This document shows, in pieces, positions 9,930 to 61,875 of a DNA stretch of 64,000 nt. Every line of letters begins with the position of its first letter. The stretch's first letter is position 1. Under the pieces are notes generated by a model. That model searched no databases, was not told the DNA's origin, and saw only the letters and a list, made by a program, of their open reading frames with translations. The position numbers were made by a program, and so were the translations under genes. This stretch comes from Providencia huaxiensis (GTDB lineage Bacteria; Pseudomonadota; Gammaproteobacteria; Enterobacterales; Enterobacteriaceae): positions 3,906,001-3,970,000 of the forward strand of contig NZ_CP031123.2 of NCBI RefSeq assembly GCF_002843235.3, written 5' to 3'.

Positions 9930-10340
9930 ATGAATCAATCCACTATAGAACCTGTTCGCCTTGATAAATGGCTGTGGGCTGCGCGATTCTATAAAACGCG
10001 TGCCGTCGCCCGTGAAATGATTGAAGGCGGTAAAGTCCATTACAATGGGCAAAGAACTAAGCCTGGGAAAATTGTTGAGCTGCATGGGGTCGTTAAACTT
10101 CGGCAAGGTAATGATGAACGTACGGTTGAAATCTTGCAGATCAGCAGCCAGCGCAAAGGCGCACCGGAAGCACAGTCCCTGTACAGTGAAACCGTAGAAA
10201 GTATTGAGCAACGAGAGAAAATGGCACAAGCACGTAAGATGAACGCACTTACGATGCCACATCCAGAGCGACGTCCAGATAAGAAAGAACGGCGTACTCT
10301 GTTAAAGTTTAAACAAACAAATTCTCATGAGTCGTCTTAA
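9930..10340 (+). CDS. hslR: heat shock protein 15 (ribosome-associated, S4 domain)
   Basis: The 136-residue Hsp15 binds free 50S subunits that carry a nascent chain and helps recycle them. The S4 RNA-binding domain is at about residues 9-70 (RLDKWLWAARFYKTRAVAREMI...GGKVHYNG), with a basic C-terminal tail. It has a strong GGAGG site about 8 bases upstream. It lies 39 bases before hslO, the conserved heat-shock pair. Confidence 0.95.
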   Translation: MNQSTIEPVRLDKWLWAARFYKTRAVAREMIEGGKVHYNGQRTKPGKIVELHGVVKLRQGNDERTVEILQISSQRKGAPEAQSLYSETVESIEQREKMAQARKMNALTMPHPERRPDKKERRTLLKFKQTNSHESS

Positions 10341-10379
10341 TGACGGCCTGAGCAACAGTCAGAGCAATAGAGAGATATT

Positions 10380-11252
10380 ATGGCAAACCAAGACTCACTC
10401 CACCGTTTTTTATTTGAACAACATTCCGTTCGTGGAGAAATGATTAGTGTTGATGAAACTTTTGAACATATTTTAGAAAACCATGACTACCCAACAGCGG
10501 TAAAAGGTTTGCTAGGAGAGTTGCTTGTTGCAACCAGTTTATTAACGGCAACGTTGAAGTTCGATGGCGATATTACTGTCCAAATTCAAGGTGATGGCCC
10601 TGTTAATTTGGCGGTTATCAACGGTAATAATTTACAACAGATGCGTGGTGTTGCACGTGTAGATGGCCCGGTTGTTGCAGGTAGCACCCTGAAACAGATG
10701 GTTGGTAACGGCTTTATAGTGATTACTATTACACCGAGTCAAGGTGAACGTTATCAAGGGATTGTAGCGATCGAAGGGGATTCTATCGAAGAAAGCATTG
10801 ATGCCTATTTCCGCCAATCAGAGCAATTACCAACCCGTTTATTCATCCGTGTGGGTGAAGTGGATGGGAAACCAAGTGCAGGTGGCATGTTGTTGCAAGT
10901 TTTGCCTGCAGCAAATGACACAAGCCATGACTTTTTTGACCACTTAGTGCAACTGACGGCCACGATTAAGGGCCAAGAACTGAGTACATTGGATGTGAAA
11001 GAGGTTTTACATCGTCTTTATCATGAAGAAGATGTCACGCTATATGACCCACAATCTGTCGAGTTTCGTTGTACTTGTTCAAGGGAGCGTTGTGAAAGTA
11101 CATTAGCCACCTTACCTAAGGAAGATGTTATCGATATTTTGCACAAAGATGGGAAAATTGATATGGAATGTGAATTTTGTGGCTCACACTACGTATTTAT
11201 TGAATCTGATCTTCAAGGGTTAAATAATGAGCTAAATCAGCAACTTCACTGA
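10380..11252 (+). CDS. hslO: redox-regulated chaperone Hsp33
   Basis: The 290-residue Hsp33 is switched on by oxidation and heat. The zinc-binding cysteines are in place near the C-terminus: CTC in RCTCSRERC and CEFC in [10 protein letters not shown] (CxC and CxxC). The N-terminal domain matches E. coli Hsp33 (FLFE...VRGE, LLGELL). It is in an operon with hslR and is followed by a strong terminator. Confidence 0.96.
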
Positions 11253-11278
11253 TACGATTTAGCAACCTAATTATGTGA

Positions 11279-11306
11279 CAAGGGTGCAATTCTGCACCTT
11301 TTTTTT
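11279..11306 (+). terminator. hslRO terminator
   Basis: Stem GGTGCA (11283-11288) / TGCACC (11293-11298), extended outward by A-T and G-T pairs to about 9 bp, with loop ATTC and an eight-T run at 11299-11306. It is a canonical intrinsic terminator. Confidence 0.9.
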
Positions 11307-11455
11307 ATAATTTTAAAGCATTATTACGTGCTCTAAGTCTCATTATGAATTAAAAAAAATTATACATTTTCAATTCTTTGATAGCAATCGCTGTTAATTA
11401 GTCGTAAAGAATTATGATCATCCGCAGATTAGTTATGTTTACCAGGAGCAATATA

Positions 11456-13075
11456 ATGAGCGCTAAAAGCATTACCCTGAAGGAACTTGAAAAGTACGGT
11501 ATTCATGATGTAGCTGAAGTGGTTTATAACCCAAGTTACGAGCTATTATTCACGGAAGAAACTAAGCCAGGACTTGAAGGTTATGAACGTGGAACAGTGA
11601 CCACTTTAGGTGCTGTTGCGGTTGATACTGGTATCTTTACTGGCCGTTCACCAAAAGATAAATATATTGTACGTGATGACGTGACTCGCGATACAGTTTG
11701 GTGGGCAGACCAAGGTAAAGGTAAAAATGACAACAAACCTATGTCACAAGAAGTTTGGGCGGATCTCAAACATTTAGTGACGGAACAACTGTCAGGTAAA
11801 CGTTTGTTTATCATTGATGCATTCTGTGGTGCGAACGCTGACACGCGTCTAAAAGTACGTTTTATCACTGAAGTTGCATGGCAGGCGCATTTCGTTAAAA
11901 ACATGTTCATTCGCCCATCTGATGAAGAGTTAGTGGGTTTTGAACCTGATTTCATCGTTATGAATGGTGCGAAATGCACTAACCCGAATTGGGAAGCACA
12001 AGGTTTGAATTCAGAAAACTTTGTTGCGTTCAACTTAACAGAACGCATGCAACTGATCGGTGGCTCTTGGTACGGCGGCGAAATGAAGAAAGGTATGTTC
12101 TCTATGATGAACTACCTGTTGCCATTAAAAGGCATTGCATCTATGCACTGTTCCGCTAACGTCGGTGAGAAAGGCGATGTAGCTATTTTCTTTGGTTTAT
12201 CTGGAACAGGTAAAACCACGCTTTCTACCGATCCAAAACGTAAGTTAATTGGTGACGATGAACACGGTTGGGATGATGACGGCGTATTCAACTTTGAAGG
12301 CGGTTGCTACGCAAAAACGATCAACCTATCTAAAGAAGCTGAGCCAGACATCTATGGCGCTATCAAACGTGATGCGTTATTGGAAAACGTGGTGGTATTG
12401 GCTGATGGTTCAGTCGATTTCAATGATGGTTCAAAAACAGAAAACACTCGTGTTTCTTACCCAATCTACCACATTGAAAACATTGTAAAACCTGTTTCTA
12501 AAGCAGGCCATGCAACAAAAGTTATCTTCTTAACCGCAGATGCATTTGGTGTGTTACCGCCTGTTTCTCGTTTAACGCCTGAGCAAACTCAGTACCACTT
12601 CCTGTCGGGCTTTACTGCGAAATTAGCCGGTACAGAGCGTGGTGTGACGGAGCCGACTCCAACATTCTCTGCATGTTTTGGTGCTGCATTCTTATCACTG
12701 CACCCAACACAATACGCTGAAGTATTAGTTAAGCGTATGGAAGCAGTGGGCGCGAAAGCTTACTTAGTGAATACAGGTTGGAATGGTACAGGTAAACGTA
12801 TTTCTATCAAAGATACACGTGCCATCATCGATGCTATCTTAAGTGGCGATATCGAAAAAGCAGACATGATTAAACTACCGGTATTCGATTTAGAAGTCCC
12901 AACAGCATTACCGGGTGTGGATACCAATATCCTTGACCCACGTAATACTTATGCAGACAAAGCACAGTGGGATGAAAAAGCGCAAGATTTAGCGGAACGT
13001 TTCGTGAACAACTTTGATAAGTACACGGACACTCCAGCAGGCGCGGCACTGGTGAAAGCAGGGCCAAAACTGTAA
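11456..13075 (+). CDS. pckA: phosphoenolpyruvate carboxykinase (ATP)
   Basis: The first committed step of gluconeogenesis: oxaloacetate + ATP to PEP + ADP + CO2. The ATG at 11456 (MSAKSITL..., 539 residues) is preferred over one 14 codons upstream. It has AGGAGC 6-11 bases upstream, and the length matches E. coli PckA (540). The P-loop [11 protein letters not shown], the kinase-2 motif [21 protein letters not shown] and the substrate-site TGRSPKDK are all present. It is monocistronic, with its own terminator. Confidence 0.97.
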
Positions 13076-51063: not shown

Positions 51064-51139
51064 CCCATGGGCTGGAATATTACCAAAACAAGCGGTGATA
51101 GAGCTTTTCCAAAGAAATGACTAAAAGAGGATGTACATT

Positions 51140-52235
51140 ATGGATCATGAACGTAGAGATTTATTGAAATTAACGGGGGCAAGTATTGCTGTTGCAGGTA
51201 TGGCATCGATAATTACAGCGCCAGTATTAGCGCAACCAAATACAAATTTCAGTGAGCTATGGGATAAAACCTTTGTAAAAAGTGATAAGGTTGAACATAA
51301 AAAAGTCACATTCAAAAATCGTTATGGTTTAGCCTTAGTCGGAGATTTATATCAACCTAAACATAGTGGTGGATTATTTTCTGCGATTGTATTGAGTGGT
51401 CCATTTGGCGCAGTAAAAGAGCAGTCTTCGGGGTTGTATGCGCAAACATTAGCAGAGCGTGGTTTTATTACTCTCGCATTTGATCCCTCTTTTACGGGGG
51501 AAAGTGGTGGTGAGCCTCGAAATGTTGCTTCTGCGGATATCAATACGGAAGATTTTAGTGCGGCTGTTGATTTTTTAGGTCTACAGCCAAATGTTGACCG
51601 GGGTGCTAGCTATTTGTGGATTAAGTGGTATGGCTTTAACCGCAGCGAGTAGCGATTCACGTATTAAAGCCGTAGCGACGGCATCAATGTACGATATGTC
51701 TCGCAGTATTAGCCGCGGGTACCAAGATAGTTACACCATTGAAGAACGACATAAAGTGATTGATTATCTTAGCCAGCAGCGCTGGAAAGATGCAAAAAAT
51801 GGACACTATGCTTTAGGTTACCATGAGGTGCCATTCGATGAGGATGGCAATATTATCGAGGGGCAACGTGTTTTACCGGAGACTTTGCCAGAGAATGCAC
51901 CGCCTGTATTAGTCGCATTTTTTGATTATTACCGTACTCCTCGAGGTTTTCATCCTCGTTCAATTAATTCAACAACCGCGTGGACAGCAACAACGCCTAT
52001 ATCTTTTTTTTATTTTCCAATGCATACCAATATTGAAATGATATCACCAAAACCAATTTTGCTGATTGCGGGGGAAAATGCACATTCTCGTTATTATTCA
52101 GAAGATGTGTACAAAGTGGCTTCAGAACCTAAAGAACTCTTGATTATTCCAAATGCTGATCATGTTGATTTATATGATAATCCAAGCAAGATCCCTTTCG
52201 ATAAACTCACTGTTTTCTTTCAACAGAATTTATAA
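51140..52235 (+). pseudogene. Tat-exported alpha/beta hydrolase, frameshifted
   Basis: This is a YcjY-like hydrolase. ATG 51140 has AGAGGA upstream. Residues 1-31 are a twin-arginine signal (RRDLLKLTGASIAVAG...ALAQ type). Frame 1 covers the first half to FLGLQPNVDR, and a second frame continues GVLAICGLSGMALTAA (nucleophile elbow). Alignment with the usual NVDRERIGVLGICG pattern suggests about 11 bases are missing near 51600. The C-terminal part with Asp (AGENAHSRYY) and His (NADHVDLYD) is intact. The gene is probably non-functional. Confidence 0.82.
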
Positions 52236-52829: not shown

Positions 52830-53158
52830 TGTTCATTAACCGTGGATAAATTTCTTGCTGGCAAGTATACACTATTCTAGATAAGGGGGGAAAAGGGATA
52901 CAGGCTAATGTTCATGTGAGGCTACCTTTATCGTTCATGCAATGAAAACAATATAACTACCTTATAAATCAATTTCCACTCAACTATTCATCATATTTCG
53001 TTTTTTATATCCTAGTGACATCATGATTAAGTTGTTGCATTTCGGTATCATCACTGACTTTTCTGACATATTATATTTAATTTTCTGGAAAATTATTATT
53101 TTTAGTTAATTTATCGTTGGTATATAGCGAAATATAATGAGGTATAGATGAGATCATA
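52830..53158. promoter_or_regulatory. divergent yibL / recombinase upstream region
   Basis: About 330 AT-rich bases with no ORF. It must hold the promoters of yibL and the recombinase gene; no single site was confidently placed. Confidence 0.35.
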
Positions 53159-53716
53159 ATGACTAAACGTAAATTTATTACACGTACAGAAGTTAATTCT
53201 TTATTGGATGCTACAAAGCAAGGTCGCTATCCTAATCGAGACTATTGCTTGTTATTAATGAGCTTTCTGCATGGATTAAGAGTTAGTGAGCTCACTCATA
53301 TCACAATGGCTGATATTGATTTGGCGCAGAAAGTGATATTTATTAGGAGACTAAAAGGAGGGCTGTCTACCGTACAGCCTATAATCCCCGAAGAGTTTAA
53401 TGCGATTGAAAAATGGCTAGTTGAAAGAGATTCTTGGAAAACAGCAGGGTCAGATTGTTTATTCATTTCACAAAAGGGAAGCCAAATTTCTCGTTATCAA
53501 ATTTATCGCTTATTTGAGCAGTATGGGAAAATTGCAGGGCTTCCTGTAAAGCTTCATCCTCATATGCTAAGGCATGCATGCGGCTATGCTTTAGCTGATT
53601 TGGGTAGGGACACTCGATTAATCCAAGATTATTTAGGACATCGAAATATCGCCCATACTGTAATTTATACTGCTAGTAATGAAAAAAGATTTAGTGGTAT
53701 TTGGTCGAATCAATAA
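53159..53716 (+). CDS. mrpI: FimB/MrpI-type tyrosine recombinase
   Basis: The 185-residue phase-variation recombinase belongs to the FimB/FimE/MrpI family. The catalytic residues are present: Arg in LHGLRVSELTHI, HPHMLRHACGYALAD (H-x-x-R-H), LGHRNIAHT and the nucleophile Tyr in VIYTASN. Only the catalytic domain is present, as in FimB (200 residues). It lies upstream of a fimbrial operon and should invert the element at 54258-54569. The symbol follows Proteus mrpI by analogy. Confidence 0.9.
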   Translation: MTKRKFITRTEVNSLLDATKQGRYPNRDYCLLLMSFLHGLRVSELTHITMADIDLAQKVIFIRRLKGGLSTVQPIIPEEFNAIEKWLVERDSWKTAGSDCLFISQKGSQISRYQIYRLFEQYGKIAGLPVKLHPHMLRHACGYALADLGRDTRLIQDYLGHRNIAHTVIYTASNEKRFSGIWSNQ

Positions 53717-54257
53717 GTAATTTAATGAGTTGTGTCAACATAAAGCTAACGCTAAACATAATAATATGAACTAAACATCAAGAATACCTCGGTTATTTAG
53801 GTGATTGATTTTATAAAACTGAGGTATTCTTATGCATATTAAGGGCAATGATTATTTTTAAACCCATAAATAGCATACTCAAATAATTTATTTTCCAGTC
53901 ACTAAAAACAAAATTAGTTAATAATTTTATTTATTCTTTTTTTTTGAATTATCATGATTTAATTACTCAAATTAAGAGTGTCAGCAAATCACTTTCGTGG
54001 TTAACTAATTATTATCATATTTTAATCATTTTCTTCACAATAATAGTCTATTTTTGATTATCCAATAAAGCCGCTCTGTGAAACGGCACGATGTAAGTGA
54101 AATCATTTAGATGATAAATTCATATTTTTGGTTTTTGTAAGTTAAAAACCTTTAATTGATGTTTTAAAATACAGCAATATAAAATATAACAAAAAAATTA
54201 ATCAATTATCAATAATAATCAATTAGATAAATAAAATACCTATGAAAATCAATGCAT
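53717..54257. other. AT-rich gap left of the switch
   Basis: About 540 bases with no ORF. It begins with a 15-bp hairpin (53780-53831). The promoter in the switch points into this region in the sequenced orientation. Confidence 0.45.
53780..53831 (+). terminator. probable recombinase terminator hairpin
   Basis: AAGAATACCTCGGTT (53780-53794) pairs with 53817-53831 with one G-T pair and a 22-base loop. It is 63 bases past the recombinase stop. No T-run follows, so termination is likely but unproven. Confidence 0.55.
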
Positions 54258-54283
54258 AATGCAACATAATAAATCAAAATGTT
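54258..54283 (+). repeat. left inverted repeat of the fimbrial switch
   Basis: This 26-base sequence ends in AATAAATCAAAATGTT, which is perfectly matched in the right repeat. The full arm is 24/26 identical to the reverse complement of 54544-54569. It is the inferred crossover site for the MrpI-type recombinase. Confidence 0.85.
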
Positions 54284-54297
54284 CAAATTACCTAATA

Positions 54298-54326
54298 AGT
54301 ATAATTATCAGACTAACTAAAATCAA
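54298..54326 (-). promoter_or_regulatory. promoter inside the invertible element, pointing away from the operon
   Basis: On the minus strand: -35 TTGATT (54321-54326), 17-base spacer, -10 TATACT (54298-54303), start near 54291. I found only a weak candidate on the plus strand (TATAAA at 54511-54516 with TTTAAT). Confidence 0.7.
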
Positions 54327-54538
54327 ACAGCATAAAACTCTGTTGCTGCAATGCATTTTAGAGGTAATTATTAATTAATGTAAAAATTTGTCATTAACAA
54401 CAAAAAGTTATCATTTATGATTTTTTTTGAAATAAAACCCACTAGTTAAATTATCTAATTTATCCAGTATAAAGTATAAATTAAAGATTTTAATCCTGAC
54501 GATTCTTATATATAAAACAATTTACCTAAAACTCATTT

Positions 54539-54576
54539 AACGCAACATTTTGATTTATTTTGTTGCGTTTTTTTTT
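54539..54576 (+). terminator. orientation-dependent intrinsic terminator at the right switch junction
   Basis: AACGCAACA (54539-54547) pairs with TGTTGCGTT (54561-54569), followed by a nine-T run that starts within the stem and ends at 54576. The first five bases of the left arm are inside the invertible segment. After inversion they would be replaced by TTTG-type sequence and the hairpin would be lost. Confidence 0.8.
54544..54569 (-). repeat. right inverted repeat of the fimbrial switch
   Basis: Reverse complement of 54258-54283 at 24 of 26 positions, including a perfect 16-base core (AACATTTTGATTTATT). It overlaps the terminator hairpin. Confidence 0.85.
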
Positions 54577-54656
54577 GCATTTCAAAAAATAAATTGTTTA
54601 TTTTGCGAGCGGTTCTGATTGTTTTGCCACATTACATAAGGCTTTATTGGTGAGAT

Positions 54657-55046
54657 ATGAAAAGTAATAAATTAAAGACCAGTATAGATAGCTTTCAGAA
54701 AATACTAACTGAACAAATTGGCATGGAATTATCGCATCTTAGAAAAGAGAAAGGACTTAGTGGTAGTGATCTAGCTAAAAAATTAAATATATCACAACAA
54801 CAAATATCTCGTTATGAAAGAGGAATATGTAGCATTAACTGTGGAATGCTATTTTCAATTTTATTCTATCTAGAAATTAGCCCAAGTGCATTTTTTGACA
54901 GTGTATCATTGAAAATAAATGAAAAAAACCCTAGTGCTAATTCATTTATTCATAATAGTGCATGTTTATCCGATGAAAAGGATAACTACCATTATATTTT
55001 TAATCGACAAACAGAAATTATTTTAAATTCTTTATACAGCAAATAG
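54657..55046 (+). CDS. XRE-family helix-turn-helix regulator (MrpJ-like)
   Basis: The 129-residue protein has an XRE/Cro-type DNA-binding domain at about residues 22-76 (IGMELSHLRKEKGLSGSDLAKKLNISQQQISRYERGICSINCGMLFSILFYLEISPSAFF). In Proteus, MrpJ-type proteins are made from fimbrial operons and repress motility genes. Here the gene is first, between the switch and the major pilin, whereas mrpJ is last in the mrp operon. It would be switched with the pilins. GGTGAG precedes the ATG. Confidence 0.87.
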   Translation: MKSNKLKTSIDSFQKILTEQIGMELSHLRKEKGLSGSDLAKKLNISQQQISRYERGICSINCGMLFSILFYLEISPSAFFDSVSLKINEKNPSANSFIHNSACLSDEKDNYHYIFNRQTEIILNSLYSK

Positions 55047-55076
55047 TTATTTTAAAAATAATAAATTCTAACTATG

Positions 55077-55115
55077 CCCTACATCATGTTGGGTAATCAT
55101 CACGTTGTTATATAT
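55077..55115 (+). promoter_or_regulatory. second promoter and near-palindrome before the major pilin
   Basis: TTGGGT (55089-55094), 16 bases, TATATA (near 55111-55116) form a possible promoter. The near-palindrome CCCTACATCATGTTGGG (55077-55093) covers its -35. The XRE protein encoded just upstream is a candidate ligand. Confidence 0.45.
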
Positions 55116-55128
55116 AAATGAGGTTCAA

Positions 55129-55692
55129 ATGAAAAAAGTATTTTTAGCCGCACTAGTTTCTGCCGCTATTGCATCTCCAGCACTCGCTGATCAAGGGCAT
55201 GGTAAAGTCACATTTAAAGGTGAAATCATCGATGCACCTTGCTCAATTAGTTCAGATTCTATTGACCAAACAGTATGGTTAGGCCAAATCGCTAACTCTG
55301 TTTTAGCGAATGGCGGTACTTCTAGCGCGAAGCAATTCAATATTGAATTGGAAGACTGTGTATTCCCGAAAGATGCAGATGATAAAGTGTACAACGATAA
55401 AGTGAGTATCACATTCTCTGGTTCTAGCGCTGCTTTCAACTCTAAATTACTTGGAGTAACAGGCTTAGACGCAACAGATACAACTATTGCTGGCAACGTG
55501 GGTATTCAATTAACGGATACTAATGGCGCAGCGTTAGATATGGGAGTTGCAACAGCTCAAGAACATCAATTACAAGCGGGTGATAATACATTACGTTATA
55601 GCGCTTATGTACAAGGTGCAAACGTTGCGGTTGATAAAATTCCATTAGGTAAATTCGAAGGCGTAACTAACTTTACCTTAACTTATAACTAA
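55129..55692 (+). CDS. mrpA: major fimbrial subunit (MrpA-like)
   Basis: The 187-residue pilin has a signal peptide (MKKVFLAALVSAAIASPALA, cleavage before DQGHG). The N-terminal donor strand begins GHGKVTFKGEIIDAPCSI; the conserved pilin disulfide Cys pair is Cys in DAPCSIS and Cys in LEDCVFP. The C-terminus ends TNFTLTYN (beta-zipper). ATG 55129 is used, with GAGG upstream. It is the first structural gene and is followed by a strong hairpin that likely favours high expression. Confidence 0.92.
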   Translation: MKKVFLAALVSAAIASPALADQGHGKVTFKGEIIDAPCSISSDSIDQTVWLGQIANSVLANGGTSSAKQFNIELEDCVFPKDADDKVYNDKVSITFSGSSAAFNSKLLGVTGLDATDTTIAGNVGIQLTDTNGAALDMGVATAQEHQLQAGDNTLRYSAYVQGANVAVDKIPLGKFEGVTNFTLTYN

Positions 55693-55693
55693 T

Positions 55694-55736
55694 TGATTAG
55701 TTTAAGAGGAATACCTTTGTGTTCCTCTATTAATCA
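55694..55736 (+). promoter_or_regulatory. intercistronic hairpin after the major pilin
   Basis: TGATTA (55694-55699) and AGAGGAA (55705-55711) pair with TTCCTCT (55722-55728) and TAATCA (55731-55736). There is no long U-run. Such hairpins after major pilins stabilise the pilin message and limit read-through to the minor genes. Confidence 0.75.
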
Positions 55737-55758
55737 CCAAATTAAGTCAGAGGTTAAA

Positions 55759-56304
55759 GTGAAAGGATTTATCTATTTGCGAAGAAAAGTATCTTCCCTA
55801 TTTCTTCTAACATTATTTCTTTCGCCACAAATGGCTGCATCATCTCATGGATGGGGAAAAGTCACGATGAATGGCGAAATAGTCGATACTGCCTGCGCAA
55901 TAGATATTGGGTCTAGGGATCAGACCATTAATATGGGGGTACTTCCAACAAGCTATATTCGTGAAGTTGGGAAAGGCCCCATAAAAGAATTCGATATTAA
56001 GCTCATTGATTGTCGTTGGGAAAAATATTCGAAAGATAATAACGAATGGAATTCACTCGAAGTCACTTTTGATGGTCCATCAGAAGGTGATTTTTTCACA
56101 CTCTCGGGTGAAGCAAAAGGAGTGCAATTGGCATTGCATGATATATCGGGATATTCCATTACACCAGGAAAGCCATTACCTGCATTAGGAATTACACCAG
56201 GGACAATGATCCTGAAATATCAAATGCAATTAGTCACCAATTATCATCCTGTTAAAGCGGGTAATTACCAAACCTTATTAAGGTTCAAGGTCGATTATTA
56301 TTAA
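55759..56304 (+). CDS. mrpB: minor fimbrial subunit (MrpB-like)
   Basis: About 181 residues from a GTG start at 55759 with GAGG upstream (MKGFIYLRRKVSSLFLLTLFL signal). Mature part SSHGWGKVTMNGEIVDTACAI..., with the pilin Cys pair (TACAID, LIDCRW). The upstream open frame (from 55693) overlaps the hairpin and is not needed. It probably ends or anchors the fimbrial rod. Confidence 0.85.
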   Translation: MKGFIYLRRKVSSLFLLTLFLSPQMAASSHGWGKVTMNGEIVDTACAIDIGSRDQTINMGVLPTSYIREVGKGPIKEFDIKLIDCRWEKYSKDNNEWNSLEVTFDGPSEGDFFTLSGEAKGVQLALHDISGYSITPGKPLPALGITPGTMILKYQMQLVTNYHPVKAGNYQTLLRFKVDYY

Positions 56305-56333: not shown

Positions 56334-58865
56334 ATGTTTTTTATGTTTTTTAAACAACACAAAATAAATATAATAACGACAACGATAATGATTACATTTG
56401 GGGCATTATCCGCTCAGTTATATGCTGCCGATACCATACAATTTAATACGGCATTATTTGATTTAGAAGACAAAAAAAACATTGATATTAAACAATTCTC
56501 ACGGGCAGGCTATATTATGCCTGGCACTTATCCTCTCAAAGTACAAGTAAATAAAGAAACTTTACCTGAGCAACGGTTTTCATTCTATGCGCCAGAAAAT
56601 GACCCTGAAGATAGCCTCGTTTGTATCACACCAGAGCAAGTCCAGCAGCTAGGATTAACAGCCAGTTCGTTGAAGCAAATTACGTGGTGGCATAATAATG
56701 AGTGCCTTGATTTACGCAGCTTACCCGGCTTTCAAGCACGAGGGGATTTATCGGACTCAACGTTGTATCTGAGTATACCTCAAGCCTACCTTGAATATAG
56801 AACAGCTAACTGGGATCCGCCTTCTCTGTGGGATGAAGGAATCTCAGGGGCTATTTTAGACTACAATATCAACGCAAGAGCGAATAAGCCTCATGATAAC
56901 AATAGTAACTATAATGTGACAGCAAATGGTGTCGCAGGTGTGAACCTTGGTGCATGGCGCTTTAGGGGGGATTGGCAGGGGCGTGCTCAACGAGAAACTG
57001 GCTCGAATAGTAAAAATGAGCATGACTTTCAATGGAGCCGGTTATACGCCTACAAAGCGTTAACCAGTATTAAAGCAAAATTGACCTTGGGTGAGGACTA
57101 TTTTAACACCGATTTATTCGATAGTTTTCGATTTACAGGTGTTAGCTTACGCTCTGATATCTTAATGTTACCACCTAATTTACGTGGGTATGCACCTGAA
57201 ATAACAGGTGTTGCGACGACAAATGCGACGGTGATTGTTAGCCAACAAGGGCGAATTATTTATCAAGAACAAGTCGCCGCGGGTCCTTTCCGTATCCAAA
57301 ATTTAAGTGATGCGACGACGGGAAAACTGGATGTTCGAATCGAAGAGCAGGATGGTTCGGTTCAAGAATATCAGGTTGAAACAGCCAATATCCCTTATTT
57401 AACTCGACCAGGTAGTATTCGATATAAATTAGCGATGGGTCGCCCAACGGATATGAGTCATCATGTTAATGGAGATACATTTGCGAGTGGTGAAATGTCC
57501 TGGGGTGTCACTAATGGTTGGTCATTACTTGCAGGTTCACTAAATAGCCAAGACTATAATGCATTTAACGTGGGTGTCGGTCGTGACTTATTGGCATTTG
57601 GTGCCTTATCTTTCGATATTACGCATTCTATTGCAAATATTCCTAATGATAAAAAACTCACAGGTAATTCTTATCGAATAAACTATTCAAAACGTTTTGA
57701 TGACTATGATAGCCAAGTTCAGTTCGCAGGTTACCGATTCTCAGAACGCAGTTTTATGACTGTAACCGATTTTTTAACGGCTAAAGATTCTGGTGAGCGT
57801 CAAGGTAGTAATAAAGAAATGTATGTGATTTCTTTAAATAAAAACTTTAGAGAATCGAGAATTACAGCGTATTTAAACTACTCGCACCAAACCTATTGGG
57901 ATAAGCCAGAAAGTAATCGCTACAATTTAATGGTGACAAAAACCTTAGATTGGGGAAGCCTGAAGAATATTAATATTTCGTTATCGGCCTATCGTAATAA
58001 ATATAACGAAACAAATGATGATGGCCTGTATATCTCAGCTTCAATGCCTTGGGGAAATGGTGCAAATATTGGTTATTCATTACAAGCAACACGGGATGAT
58101 ACCGTTAATCGAGCAACCTATTATGACAAATTGTCAGATAGAACCAATTATCAAGTCAGTGCAGGCTCAACCAACAAAGGTGGAACCGCAAGCACCTATA
58201 TTACCCATTATGGTGATAATACTAAGTTAACTGCGAATGCTAGCTATATTCATAATAATTACACGTCATTTGGGGTAGGGGCACAAGGTGGATTTACCAT
58301 GACTTTAAATGGTGCGGATGCTCACCGAGTCTCAAATATTGGCGGAACTCGTTTGCTGATCGACACTGATGGTGTGGCTAAAATTCCCGTATCAGACCGA
58401 GGGATCCCTATTGCATCAAATGCATTTGGTAAAGTGGTTGTTCCTGACTTAAATAGCTACTACCGCAGTAAAGTTAAAGTCGATTTAAATGCATTACCGA
58501 ATAATGCCGAGGTAACGGATTCTATTGTTCAAGCGACATTAACAGAAGGCGCGATTGGCTATCGCAAATTTAATGTATTGTCTGGTGAAAAGATGATGCT
58601 TTCAATGCGTATGTCTGACGGTTCTGCACCGCCATTTGGCGCTCAGATCACGAATTTGAAAGGAAAAGAAACGGGAATAGTTACTGATAATGGATATGCC
58701 TATGTTAGTGGTATCAATCCAAATGAAGTCATGATTATTCATTGGGGTGGTGAAGCACAATGTGAAATTAATTTTCCTGAAAACTTAGAAACAATTAACC
58801 AAGGATTATTCATTCCTTGTAAACCATTATCAAATAAACGTAATGAAGCAGATAATAATCTGTAA
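56334..58865 (+). CDS. mrpC: fimbrial outer-membrane usher (MrpC-like)
   Basis: The 843-residue PapC/FimD-type usher has a signal peptide ending near LYAADT. It has the N-terminal chaperone-binding domain (IQFNTALFDLEDKKNIDIKQFS), the beta-barrel, the plug region (PEITGVATTNATVIVSQQGRIIYQEQVAAGPFRIQNL) and C-terminal domains (GSAPPFGAQI). A second ATG three codons in (56343) is at better spacing from AGGG. Two Cys pairs are visible. It assembles chaperone-bound subunits. Confidence 0.94.
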   Translation: MFFMFFKQHKINIITTTIMITFGALSAQLYAADTIQFNTALFDLEDKKNIDIKQFSRAGYIMPGTYPLKVQVNKETLPEQRFSFYAPENDPEDSLVCITPEQVQQLGLTASSLKQITWWHNNECLDLRSLPGFQARGDLSDSTLYLSIPQAYLEYRTANWDPPSLWDEGISGAILDYNINARANKPHDNNSNYNVTANGVAGVNLGAWRFRGDWQGRAQRETGSNSKNEHDFQWSRLYAYKALTSIKAKLTLGEDYFNTDLFDSFRFTGVSLRSDILMLPPNLRGYAPEITGVATTNATVIVSQQGRIIYQEQVAAGPFRIQNLSDATTGKLDVRIEEQDGSVQEYQVETANIPYLTRPGSIRYKLAMGRPTDMSHHVNGDTFASGEMSWGVTNGWSLLAGSLNSQDYNAFNVGVGRDLLAFGALSFDITHSIANIPNDKKLTGNSYRINYSKRFDDYDSQVQFAGYRFSERSFMTVTDFLTAKDSGERQGSNKEMYVISLNKNFRESRITAYLNYSHQTYWDKPESNRYNLMVTKTLDWGSLKNINISLSAYRNKYNETNDDGLYISASMPWGNGANIGYSLQATRDDTVNRATYYDKLSDRTNYQVSAGSTNKGGTASTYITHYGDNTKLTANASYIHNNYTSFGVGAQGGFTMTLNGADAHRVSNIGGTRLLIDTDGVAKIPVSDRGIPIASNAFGKVVVPDLNSYYRSKVKVDLNALPNNAEVTDSIVQATLTEGAIGYRKFNVLSGEKMMLSMRMSDGSAPPFGAQITNLKGKETGIVTDNGYAYVSGINPNEVMIIHWGGEAQCEINFPENLETINQGLFIPCKPLSNKRNEADNNL

Positions 58866-58878
58866 ATGAGTGATTGCT

Positions 58879-59628
58879 ATGAAAAAATTAACTAATTTAT
58901 ATATCAGTACTATTTTATTAAGCAGTTTAGTTAGCGGAAGTGCGTTCTCGGCAATTGCTTTAGATAGAACCCGAGTTATTTTTAATGGCGATCAAAAAAG
59001 CGTTTCAATTACTATCACGAATAAAAATAACCAGCTACCTTATTTGGCCCAAGGGTGGGTTGAAAATATTCAAGGGGTAAAAATTACTTCACCGTTTGCG
59101 GTATTACCTCCGGTGCAGAGAGTTGAGCCCGAAAAATCAAGCCAAGTCCGTATTGAGGCACTTCCTGAAATTAACCAGTTACCTCAGGATAGAGAAAGTG
59201 TTTATTACTTTAATTTAAGGGAGATCCCGCCAAAAAGTGATAAACCGAATGTTTTGCAATTAGCGTTACAAAGCAAAATTAAATTATTTTATCGCCCTAA
59301 AAGTATCATGCTAAGCGAAACTGAAATGCTGAATAATCCTTGGCAAGAAAAAACACAGCTTATTAAACAAGGCGACCAATATATCATTAAAAACCCAACT
59401 CCTTTTTATATTACGATTATTGGTGCGGCCGAGCGAAAAAATTCACCTGTAAACCAGAATTTTAAGGCAGTTATGGTTGCACCATTTAGTGAAGAAAAAT
59501 TAGGGGTTCCAAGCTCTACTGTAGGGGCAAACCCAGTATTGACCTATATAAATGACTATGGTGGCCGTCCAAAACTTCAATTTAAATGTCAAGCAAATAC
59601 ATGTCAGGTTGTTCCTGAAAATAAATAG
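58879..59628 (+). CDS. mrpD: fimbrial periplasmic chaperone (MrpD-like)
   Basis: The 249-residue PapD-type chaperone has a signal peptide (MKKLTNLYISTILLSSLVSGSAFS). The Ig-like domain 1 pattern is ALDRTRVIFNGDQKSVSITITNKNN and the conserved YFNLREIPPKS..., with IKLFYRPKS and the C-terminal domain Cys pair (FKCQANTCQ) also present. ATG 58879 is preferred; a GTG three codons upstream is open. Confidence 0.94.
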   Translation: MKKLTNLYISTILLSSLVSGSAFSAIALDRTRVIFNGDQKSVSITITNKNNQLPYLAQGWVENIQGVKITSPFAVLPPVQRVEPEKSSQVRIEALPEINQLPQDRESVYYFNLREIPPKSDKPNVLQLALQSKIKLFYRPKSIMLSETEMLNNPWQEKTQLIKQGDQYIIKNPTPFYITIIGAAERKNSPVNQNFKAVMVAPFSEEKLGVPSSTVGANPVLTYINDYGGRPKLQFKCQANTCQVVPENK

Positions 59629-59636
59629 AGAGGAAA

Positions 59637-60254
59637 ATGATGATTAATCAAAAAAGCTTTTCCTTACTCTTTGGCTTATCTCTTATATTTCATTCATCTG
59701 TGATATATGCGACATCAAATAATGCCTTTTATAACACAACAGGTAATTGGGATGTTGAAGGTGCAAATGGCAAAATTTTCGTTTATGGCTCATTAACGGA
59801 GAGTGCATGCCATTTATCGATGGATTCTGCATTTCAATCCGTTGATTTAGGAAATATTGAAACTGCATCATTAAAAACAATTGGTGCCCAAGGCCACAAG
59901 ACGCCGATAAACATCGAGTTATTGGATTGTATCGAAACCCCAACGGTTTTGAGAAACAATAAATCAGGTAATGTTACATGGAGTATTTCTCAGCCTGGCA
60001 TGAAAATTAGGTTTATTACGCCAGTTGTCCCTTTTAGACCGAATATCGCGAGAGTTGAAGGTGTGAATGGGCTTGGATTACAGATAACTAATCCTAAAGG
60101 AAAAGAAATTGCTTTTGGTGAGTACAGTGAACCTGAGCTTATTTCTACGGGGCAAAATATTTTAACTTATTATGTAGCTCCCGTAAGAATTGCAGAAAAA
60201 TTACAGGCTGGAGCTTATCGAAGTGTTATTTCTTTTCAAATAACGTATGAATAA
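59637..60254 (+). CDS. mrpE: minor fimbrial subunit (MrpE-like)
   Basis: A 205-residue subunit with a signal peptide (MMINQKSFSLLFGLSLIFHSSVIYA). The pilin pattern follows: GKIFVYGSLTESACHLSM, LLDCIE and a C-terminal SFQITYE. It starts 8 bases after the chaperone with GAGG upstream. Assignment to MrpE or a tip-adaptor role is by position only. Confidence 0.83.
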   Translation: MMINQKSFSLLFGLSLIFHSSVIYATSNNAFYNTTGNWDVEGANGKIFVYGSLTESACHLSMDSAFQSVDLGNIETASLKTIGAQGHKTPINIELLDCIETPTVLRNNKSGNVTWSISQPGMKIRFITPVVPFRPNIARVEGVNGLGLQITNPKGKEIAFGEYSEPELISTGQNILTYYVAPVRIAEKLQAGAYRSVISFQITYE

Positions 60255-60293: not shown

Positions 60294-60860
60294 ATGAATA
60301 ACTTAAATTTCAATTTTTATAAATTTAAAAAAATAATACTCTCGATGCTATTAAGTTTGTTATTTTTTTCGTTACAGAGTCAGGCAAAAAATGGTCAAAT
60401 CGGTGAAATTAAGATACGAGGACAGCTTGTCGCTGAAGCTTGTACAGTAAGACCGGGTGATGAAAATATCATTGTGGACTTTGGTACTATTGTTAATAAG
60501 TACCTCTATATTAACCAAAAAACGCCACTTGAAAATTTTAATATTCATTTAGATGACTGTGATAATAGTATCTTTAGAACGGTGACCGTTAAGTTTACAG
60601 GAAATGAGAATATCAACTTACCTGGCCTTCTTGCATTAGATTCTGGCAGCATGGCTTCAGGTATCGGAATTGAAATCTTAGAGTATAGTGGTAAAAAAAT
60701 TCCCATTAATAGTACGACACCTGCATACAATCTAGAGAATGGCACGAATATTTTAAGTTTTAATGCGAATGTGCAAGGGGAACCTGATGCAATAAAAAAT
60801 AAAAGTATTGCATTTGGTCATTTTACTGCAACCGCTATTTTTAGTTTAATTTATGATTAA
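60294..60860 (+). CDS. minor fimbrial subunit (MrpF/G-like)
   Basis: A 188-residue pilin-type protein with a signal peptide (about residues 1-31, ...LQSQA) and the pilin pattern GEIKIRGQLVAEACTVRPG, LDDCDN and FSLIYD. The stop overlaps the first possible ATG of the next gene. It could be mrpF or mrpG; the Proteus operon has both and only one is found here. Confidence 0.8.
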   Translation: MNNLNFNFYKFKKIILSMLLSLLFFSLQSQAKNGQIGEIKIRGQLVAEACTVRPGDENIIVDFGTIVNKYLYINQKTPLENFNIHLDDCDNSIFRTVTVKFTGNENINLPGLLALDSGSMASGIGIEILEYSGKKIPINSTTPAYNLENGTNILSFNANVQGEPDAIKNKSIAFGHFTATAIFSLIYD

Positions 60861-60873
60861 GGTATCAGCAACA

Positions 60874-61875
60874 ATGAAGATATTAATATTACTTCTCGCA
60901 ACCTTATTATTTTCCCCAACTATTTTTGCGTTCCAATGTAAAACTAATGGAGGACAAGAAGTTGGTGGGGGAACACAAAGTATTTATGATGTTCCTCTCG
61001 ATAATGATATTTTTGCTGTACCTAATCGTATAAATGAATTCGCGGATGTGAGTGATTTTATGACCTGCCGTAATGAAGCACCTAGTGCTTACGTTGATTA
61101 TTTAAATGTGACTGGTGCTGACCTTGGTCCTACATTTAAGAATAACCCAGAATTAAAAGCGGGTGTGGTCGTACGTGGCGCTTACTATTTAGCACCATTT
61201 AGTGGTAAAGAAATTCAAGTATTTCGTTTAACCACAGCAAGTGAACCTTTACAAATTAAATTATATTTACAGGTAAATGTTAAACCAACGCCATCAGTTT
61301 TGGTAAGAAAAGGCGATTTGCTGATGACGTTAGATCTCCATAAATATGCGACATTTGTAAATAGTAATCAGCATATTGACCATGCTTATTTTAAATGGAA
61401 TTTCTATGCAGGTAATGATGTGGTTGTTGGAACGGGTACGTGTGATATCAATGATAACCAAATCATCATTGTTGATTTTGAAACAGTAAATGCATCGGGT
61501 ATTTCAACGGTGGGAAGTGCAAGTCGTTTTCAACGTAACGCAGAAATCACTTATAGTTGTGAAGATAATAATCTGACGGCGCCAATAAAGATGATTATTA
61601 GTGGAGAAACTTCGACTTTTTCATCTGATGCTTTACTTGTTAGAACTGGAGATATTGGTAGTCAAGGTCCTATTATGCCGGGATTAGGTGTTGAGATTTA
61701 TCATCAAGGGCAAAGAGTTTCCCCTATGAATGGGCATTTCGATTCAAAAATAGAAAATGGGCATGGTAGAGATACACTAATGTTCACGCTAGTTAAAAAA
61801 CCTAATTTATCTCCAAATGAATTGATAGAAGGCCAGTTTAGTTCAGCAGCTACCATTATTATGTCCACTCCGTAG
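60874..61875 (+). CDS. fimbrial tip adhesin (MrpH-like, two-domain)
   Basis: About 333 residues from ATG 60874 (MKILILLLATLLFSPTIFA signal), with an earlier ATG at 60853 overlapping the previous stop. The mature protein starts FQCKTNGG. A receptor-binding-type N-terminal domain (about 150 residues, with Cys in FQCK and TCRNE) precedes a pilin-like C-terminal domain with Cys at GTCDI and YSCEDN. The C-terminal strand ends FSSAATIIM. It is last in the operon and longer than the other subunits, as tip adhesins are. The ligand is unknown. Confidence 0.8.
   Translation: MKILILLLATLLFSPTIFAFQCKTNGGQEVGGGTQSIYDVPLDNDIFAVPNRINEFADVSDFMTCRNEAPSAYVDYLNVTGADLGPTFKNNPELKAGVVVRGAYYLAPFSGKEIQVFRLTTASEPLQIKLYLQVNVKPTPSVLVRKGDLLMTLDLHKYATFVNSNQHIDHAYFKWNFYAGNDVVVGTGTCDINDNQIIIVDFETVNASGISTVGSASRFQRNAEITYSCEDNNLTAPIKMIISGETSTFSSDALLVRTGDIGSQGPIMPGLGVEIYHQGQRVSPMNGHFDSKIENGHGRDTLMFTLVKKPNLSPNELIEGQFSSAATIIMSTP

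Follow-up and report, generated by a model that had tools for sequence, protein, structure and literature searches.

A probable MrpI/FimB-type switch for phase variation of fimbriae, conserved in the genus Providencia

Is the DNA between a recombinase gene and a fimbrial operon in a Providencia species an invertible promoter and, if so, which way does it face in the genome as sequenced? The locus lies within a stretch of 64,000 nucleotides that was analysed as a whole (the window), and a first-pass annotation had read it as an invertible promoter element controlling mrp-like fimbriae, caught in the OFF orientation. The invertible-promoter reading is supported by the catalytic residues of the recombinase, by conserved arms and promoter, by related sites elsewhere and by an inversion at a sister locus; the element itself is in one orientation at 9/9 readable loci. 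We give a probability of roughly 0.9 to its being an MrpI/FimB-type switch for phase variation of fimbriae. In such a switch, an upstream tyrosine invertase would pair two 26-nt sites and flip the 260-nt segment between them. In the OFF state a conserved σ70-like promoter within the segment would be directed away from the operon, and after inversion to ON the same promoter would drive phase-variable expression of the XRE regulator, pilins, usher, chaperone and adhesin.

The left arm (IRL, 54258..54283, + strand) was located by inverted-repeat search, cross-genome alignment and motif scan, and the right arm (IRR, 54544..54569, + strand) by inverted-repeat search, motif scan and related sites elsewhere; between them lies the 260-nt segment (54284..54543), apparently in the OFF orientation. 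Of the 26 positions in each arm, 24 pair with the other arm in inverted orientation; the mismatches are at 54260/54567 and 54267/54560, and the 16-base core (54268-54283 and 54544-54559) is perfect. The first-pass coordinates, pairing and core were thus re-found exactly, and the placement of the arms between an MrpI/FimB-type recombinase and a fimbrial operon agrees with the gene calls and with Pfam and NCBIfam matches. Arms of 26 nt set 260 nt apart fall inside the segment range of MrpI/FimB-type switches (∼250-320 bp). The top inverted-repeat score in the 940-nt intergenic region was 20; 100 dinucleotide shuffles averaged 11.9 and peaked at 18. By sequence alone, in AT-rich DNA, this excess is clear but not enormous. 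With up to three mismatches allowed, the 4.8-Mb genome has two copies of the arm motif, one per strand, and control matches numbered 0.

Conservation across genomes was more decisive. When 60 relatives were searched with the switch region, matches were obtained in 21; these were near full-length in the genome under study and seven others, all of the same genus, and the remaining 13 of 21, which gave short AT-rich matches only, were dropped. In the alignment of the eight, 24 of 26 columns are invariant in each arm, whereas in the outer flanks this holds for 25 of 98 columns on the left (54160-54257) and 22 of 71 on the right (54570-54640). Within the segment, the promoter span is invariant at 24 of 29 columns and the middle at 61 of 130. 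Because the arms are near-invariant while their outer flanks diverge, which is stronger evidence than the shuffles, we take them to be parts of a real element; a chance repeat is ruled out by this conservation and not by the shuffles alone. The DNA of the element had no match in the plasmid collection at 1e-8, and no exact arm was found among the viral contigs.

The recombinase gene (53159..53716, + strand) encodes a FimB/MrpI-type tyrosine DNA invertase of 185 aa (PF00589, 3.9e-43) that scores above the cut-off for the NCBIfam tyrosine-type DNA invertase models NF007370 and NF007371. Residues R41, H135, R138, H161 and Y170 are invariant in an alignment of five sequences; the essential tetrad of FimE is given in the available part of one review as Arg41, His136, Arg139 and Tyr171 (PMC9820224). 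Identity to the invertase of the P. mirabilis mrp locus is 61.6%. A scan of its own genome returned nine matches, with the protein itself at 417 bits and the runner-up at 71 bits, so that this is the sole strong match of FimB type in the genome. For that reason it would have to switch both ways, as does MrpI, which is described in the same review, seen in part, as a sole recombinase switching in either direction (PMC9820224). The gene lies upstream of the fimbrial operon and on the same strand (+), and a hairpin just 3′ of it (53780..53831, + strand), an inverted repeat of which both arms are recognizable with few changes in 8/8 aligned genomes, probably marks its 3′ end. From the end of the invertase gene to the left arm the distance is ∼540 nt, compared with ∼20-40 nt in the sister locus described below.

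Invertase matches at E≤1e-20 occur in 17 of 24 genomes of the genus. Identity is at least 85% in 10 of the 24, our own included, and these orthologues add a conserved fimbrial switch to Providencia. In a scan of genome contigs with the invertase, of which the best 80 matches were kept, the closest named loci among the matches listed were those of P. rettgeri RB151 and P. vermicola, with no strain added. A repeat pair scoring at least 14 was present within 1.5 kb at 15 of the 28 invertase loci examined among those 80, not all of which need be switch arms, and was absent at 13 of 28.

The first-pass annotation had likened the repeat to no other invertible repeat; relatives do exist. The closer belongs to the P. 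rettgeri plasmid pVCSW10.1, whose 22-nt repeat agrees with the right arm at 19 of 22 positions, a value that none of 100 window shuffles and none of 500 intergenic shuffles reached. This plasmid region (NZ_CP082352.1; positions 10001-11624 of our extract L158) is a putative plasmid-borne switch module comprising an invertase, similar repeats, an HTH gene and a fimbrial operon different from that of the window. It resembles the present locus in its invertase (67% identity) and in the co-directional arrangement of invertase, repeats, HTH gene and pilin. It differs in being plasmid-borne and attached to a fimbrial operon that is only distantly related (usher 28%) and has another gene order.

The second relative is the repeat of the Proteus mrp switch, with which alignment had been proposed. 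In two P. mirabilis records of ∼4.08 Mb, 21-nt repeats that pair perfectly and are separated by 251 nt lie beside an invertase gene; the adjoining fimbrial operon is divergent, and its last gene is an XRE gene. The records (L156 and L157) are held in PLSDB as plasmids and look like mislabelled chromosomes. They are without annotation at this position, and we name the locus mrp because its size and layout fit the published switch, for which the accessible text of two papers gives a segment of 251 bp (PMC5903667) and a distance of 252 bp from mrpI to mrpA, mrpJ being the last gene (PMC9820224). Against the exact mrp repeat the window arms score 16/21, which was equalled in 36 of 500 intergenic shuffles. 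In a register picked post hoc, AACAAAATACACCAAATTGTT, the right arm scores 18/21, and this was reached in 0/100, 1/500 and 1/60 shuffles of three sets. The direct match is therefore suggestive only. It is strengthened by orthologues that bridge the two at 17-18/21: the best match of the mrp repeat in each of the eight aligned regions is the left arm (16-18/21), and the one site remaining in a ninth orthologue, G013, scores 18/21 to the exact mrp repeat and 20/23 to the right site of the window, each in 0/500 shuffles. Alignment to mrp thus holds less strongly than that to pVCSW10.1 and mainly through these intermediates. Since the sites are tied to a plasmid-borne locus and, via orthologues, to those of Proteus mrp, related switches become searchable.

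We next consider the direction of the switch. On the − strand at 54298..54326 a consensus scan finds a σ70-like promoter, TTGATT-17-TATACT, directed away from the operon. The hexamers and their 17-nt spacing do not vary among 8/8 genomes, and the distance to the arm is always 14 nt. The promoter claimed in the first-pass annotation at 54326-54298 is accordingly present and conserved, but as a class such sites stand at chance density, with 19 promoter-like sites in 53000-56000 against a shuffle mean of 18.2; its credibility comes from the identity of hexamers and spacing in 8/8 genomes and not from site density. Arithmetic inversion of the segment would bring the hexamers onto the + strand, with the −35 at 54501-54506 and the −10 at 54524-54529, and leave 14 nt between the −10 and the right arm. 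The XRE start codon lies ∼90 nt past that arm, ∼130 nt downstream of the inverted −10. The best reading is that the sequenced orientation is OFF. The reverse assignment, in which the sequenced orientation is ON by way of another promoter within the segment, such as TTAACA-16-TATGAT at 54394-54421 on the + strand, we regard as very improbable. That site does score 10/12 in the consensus scan, one above the leftward promoter, yet its −10, TATGAT, is unique to the window and its −35 is altered in four genomes (G012, G007, G006 and G002), whereas all eight share the same leftward promoter, and between the 54394-54421 site and the operon there would be a stable hairpin followed by a T-run.

With the sequenced state read as OFF, the leftward promoter would produce a transcript running away from the operon. 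Three frames of this transcript were scanned for small ORFs, and none exceeds 37 aa. A candidate terminator for it at 54087-54070 was rejected: in a relaxed search of the eight genomes, similar sequence was found in the window and G011 only.

Among the 10 genomes with an invertase of at least 85% identity, eight align across the element, all in one orientation. In the ninth, G013, a left-arm-like site and an adjacent promoter remnant survive, by eye in the same orientation; the tenth, whose switch region reads as N, was left out of the orientation count. The ON orientation was consequently seen in 0/9 readable orthologues (the eight aligned and G013). Under a model of equal frequencies, the chance that eight further genomes would agree with the first is ∼0.004. 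The uniform OFF orientation therefore means either that cells grown for sequencing strongly favour OFF or that the switch is locked. The extreme form of the latter, a relic or an effectively locked element in which the sites are retained and inversion is lost or limited to rare conditions, draws on the same 9/9 agreement and on the inner half-sites, which differ between left and right in 8/8 aligned genomes. We consider it improbable, since conservation across species is strong for arms, promoter and invertase alike, whereas a relic would be expected to drift as the flanks have, and the only decayed site among the nine readable loci is the one struck by an insertion sequence. In that locus (L054, 10419-11569) a transposase pair (PF01527, PF00665) interrupts the switch and the remaining site is degenerate; the 14 kb fetched from G013 contain no orthologous match to the XRE gene, major pilin, usher or chaperone.

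Comparison of genomes reveals an inversion at a sister locus. Five genomes of the genus have such a locus, with an invertase 50-51% identical to that of the window, and in the three that were mapped (L063, L064 and L067) the gene order of invertase, arms, XRE and pilin is that of the window. In L064 the segment (10534-10889) is inverted relative to the other four genomes and the right flanks are collinear; two of the four non-inverted loci are 99.7% identical and hence not independent. By sequence comparison, then, the invertase-arms-XRE-pilin layout has undergone inversion within the genus. One stop is flagged in each of the five sister invertase matches, and we read it as the natural end of the protein because the matches run unbroken to residue 182 of 185. 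Site pairs were also sought at ten mrp-type loci, and in two of them (L056 and L059) none was obtained.

The right recombination site has a further property. A 9-bp hairpin (54539-54547/54561-54569) spans the junction between segment and flank, with 7 T after the stem, making 54539..54576 (+ strand) a candidate intrinsic terminator. It has four G-C pairs, a 13-nt loop and a predicted folding energy of −10.6 kcal/mol (z=−3.99; 0/200 shuffles). The inner half-stem lies partly in the segment, so that inversion would break the hairpin: the junction folds at −9.7 to −13.2 kcal/mol in OFF and at a predicted −1.2 to −3.6 kcal/mol in ON across 8/8 genomes. The terminator scan gave an output without this hairpin. 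One possible interpretation, which we advance tentatively and think doubtful, is a switch with two locks, in which a single inversion turns the promoter away and also makes the right recombination site into an intrinsic terminator. The segment would contribute the inner half-stem, and the fixed flank the outer half-stem and the T-run; OFF would then also stop read-through from upstream, and ON would dissolve the predicted terminator.

A simpler account, to which we give slightly better than even odds, is that the hairpin is a mere dyad of two recombinase half-sites with no role in termination. Each arm of the sister locus is a dyad whichever way the segment lies, and no T-run follows (5/5), and the pVCSW10.1 sites also fold as dyads. 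The T-rich tail, moreover, is found in just 5/8 loci of the window type, counting those with 7 or more T among the 9 nt that follow the GCG of the stem. However, in the window type the full dyad occurs at the right site only, and T-rich 9-mers of this kind fill 5-19 of ∼550 positions in these regions, yet one lies directly after the stem in 5/8 loci. A precedent for a terminator built by recombination is cwpV of C. difficile, a switch proposed to act in this way, for which the part of the report available describes a predicted intrinsic terminator at the junction of repeat and segment, in the OFF orientation only (PMC2784873). The two share a 9-bp stem, four G-C pairs and a poly-U tract (PMC2784873, in part). 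They differ in that the cwpV promoter lies upstream of the segment, on the same partial evidence, whereas here a conserved promoter-like site lies within it, although a further promoter outside may exist; a terminator would therefore be a second layer here, and its loop of 13 nt exceeds the 3-10 nt criterion of that study (PMC2784873). If the two-lock interpretation were true, the principles of fim/mrp and of cwpV would be combined in one element, and the right-junction hairpin offers a simple testable case of a recombination-built terminator in a promoter-inversion switch.

How close is the locus to the switches already described? It is a real and conserved element, most probably an ordinary switch of the MrpI/FimB kind, but not MR/P itself, because the invertase is co-directional, the MrpJ-like gene comes first and the tip adhesin is FimH-like. 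The first-pass label 'mrp-like' accordingly stands for invertase, usher and chaperone, and fails for gene order, direction of the invertase and tip adhesin. In P. mirabilis mrp the segment is 251 nt compared with 260 nt here, the usher and chaperone are 51% and 53% identical, and an XRE regulator belongs to the operon in both; in P. mirabilis the invertase gene and the operon diverge, and the XRE gene comes last and not first. MrpJ is the product of the last operon gene and the tip adhesin of MR/P fimbriae is MrpH, according to the accessible portions of two articles (PMC9820224 and PMC7444556, respectively). Against the P. mirabilis mrp-type locus, the FimH-like tip adhesin of the window had no tblastn match at 1e-4.

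E. coli fimS is similar in being an invertible promoter of ∼300 bp with FimB-type invertase genes and a chaperone-usher operon that includes FimH; it differs in having two recombinases (FimB and FimE), 9-bp repeats (TTGGGGCCA) and a 314-bp segment, as stated in the available part of the review (PMC9820224). Homology of the window repeats to the E. coli 9-bp repeat is not claimed. An invertible site in P. stuartii shares the genus, a fimbrial locus and a linked recombinase; it differs from the present element in that the recombinase ORF is enclosed in an 844-bp segment with 14-bp imperfect repeats (PMC5903667, in the part accessible). This is the only other fimbrial invertible site named for Providencia in the portions of the literature searched, and no earlier report of the present element was found in the literature on fimbrial phase variation in Providencia and P. 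rettgeri within our reach, which most subscription journals lay outside.

The operon itself, all on the + strand, begins with an XRE/HTH regulator (54657..55046; HTH_3, 7.9e-10) that is MrpJ-like by similarity and setting. Over 96 aa it is 34% identical to the product of the XRE gene that ends the P. mirabilis mrp-type operon, and by analogy with MrpJ, which the available text of the review terms MarR-like (PMC9820224), it may couple the fimbriae to other genes. Next come the major fimbrial subunit (55129..55692; PF00419, 2.6e-15) and a second pilin-like subunit (55759..56304), for which an in-frame start at 55759 was assumed; the Pfam scan of the latter gave 0 matches, and its matches to NCBIfam pilin families, for example LpfA at 1.1e-10, fall below the cut-off. 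They are followed by the outer membrane usher (56334..58865; PF00577, 4.9e-158; NF011812 above cut-off), the periplasmic chaperone (58870..59628; PF00345/PF02753) and two minor pilins (59637..60254, PF00419 at 2.7e-7; 60294..60860, PF00419 at 1.9e-17). The last gene encodes a two-domain tip adhesin with a FimH-like lectin domain (60853..61875; PF09160, 5.3e-11; PF00419, 1e-11), whose top PDB match is FimH (3.3e-15). At the positions that we take to be equivalent to the FimH pocket, F1, N46, D54 and D140 are kept. D47, Q133 and N135 look changed, and mannose binding by this adhesin is therefore uncertain. On the other side of the invertase gene, at 51131-52235, lie two overlapping ORFs in different frames; neither piece had a match in the Pfam scan, so we propose no name, and by eye they look like one hydrolase-like gene split by a frameshift.
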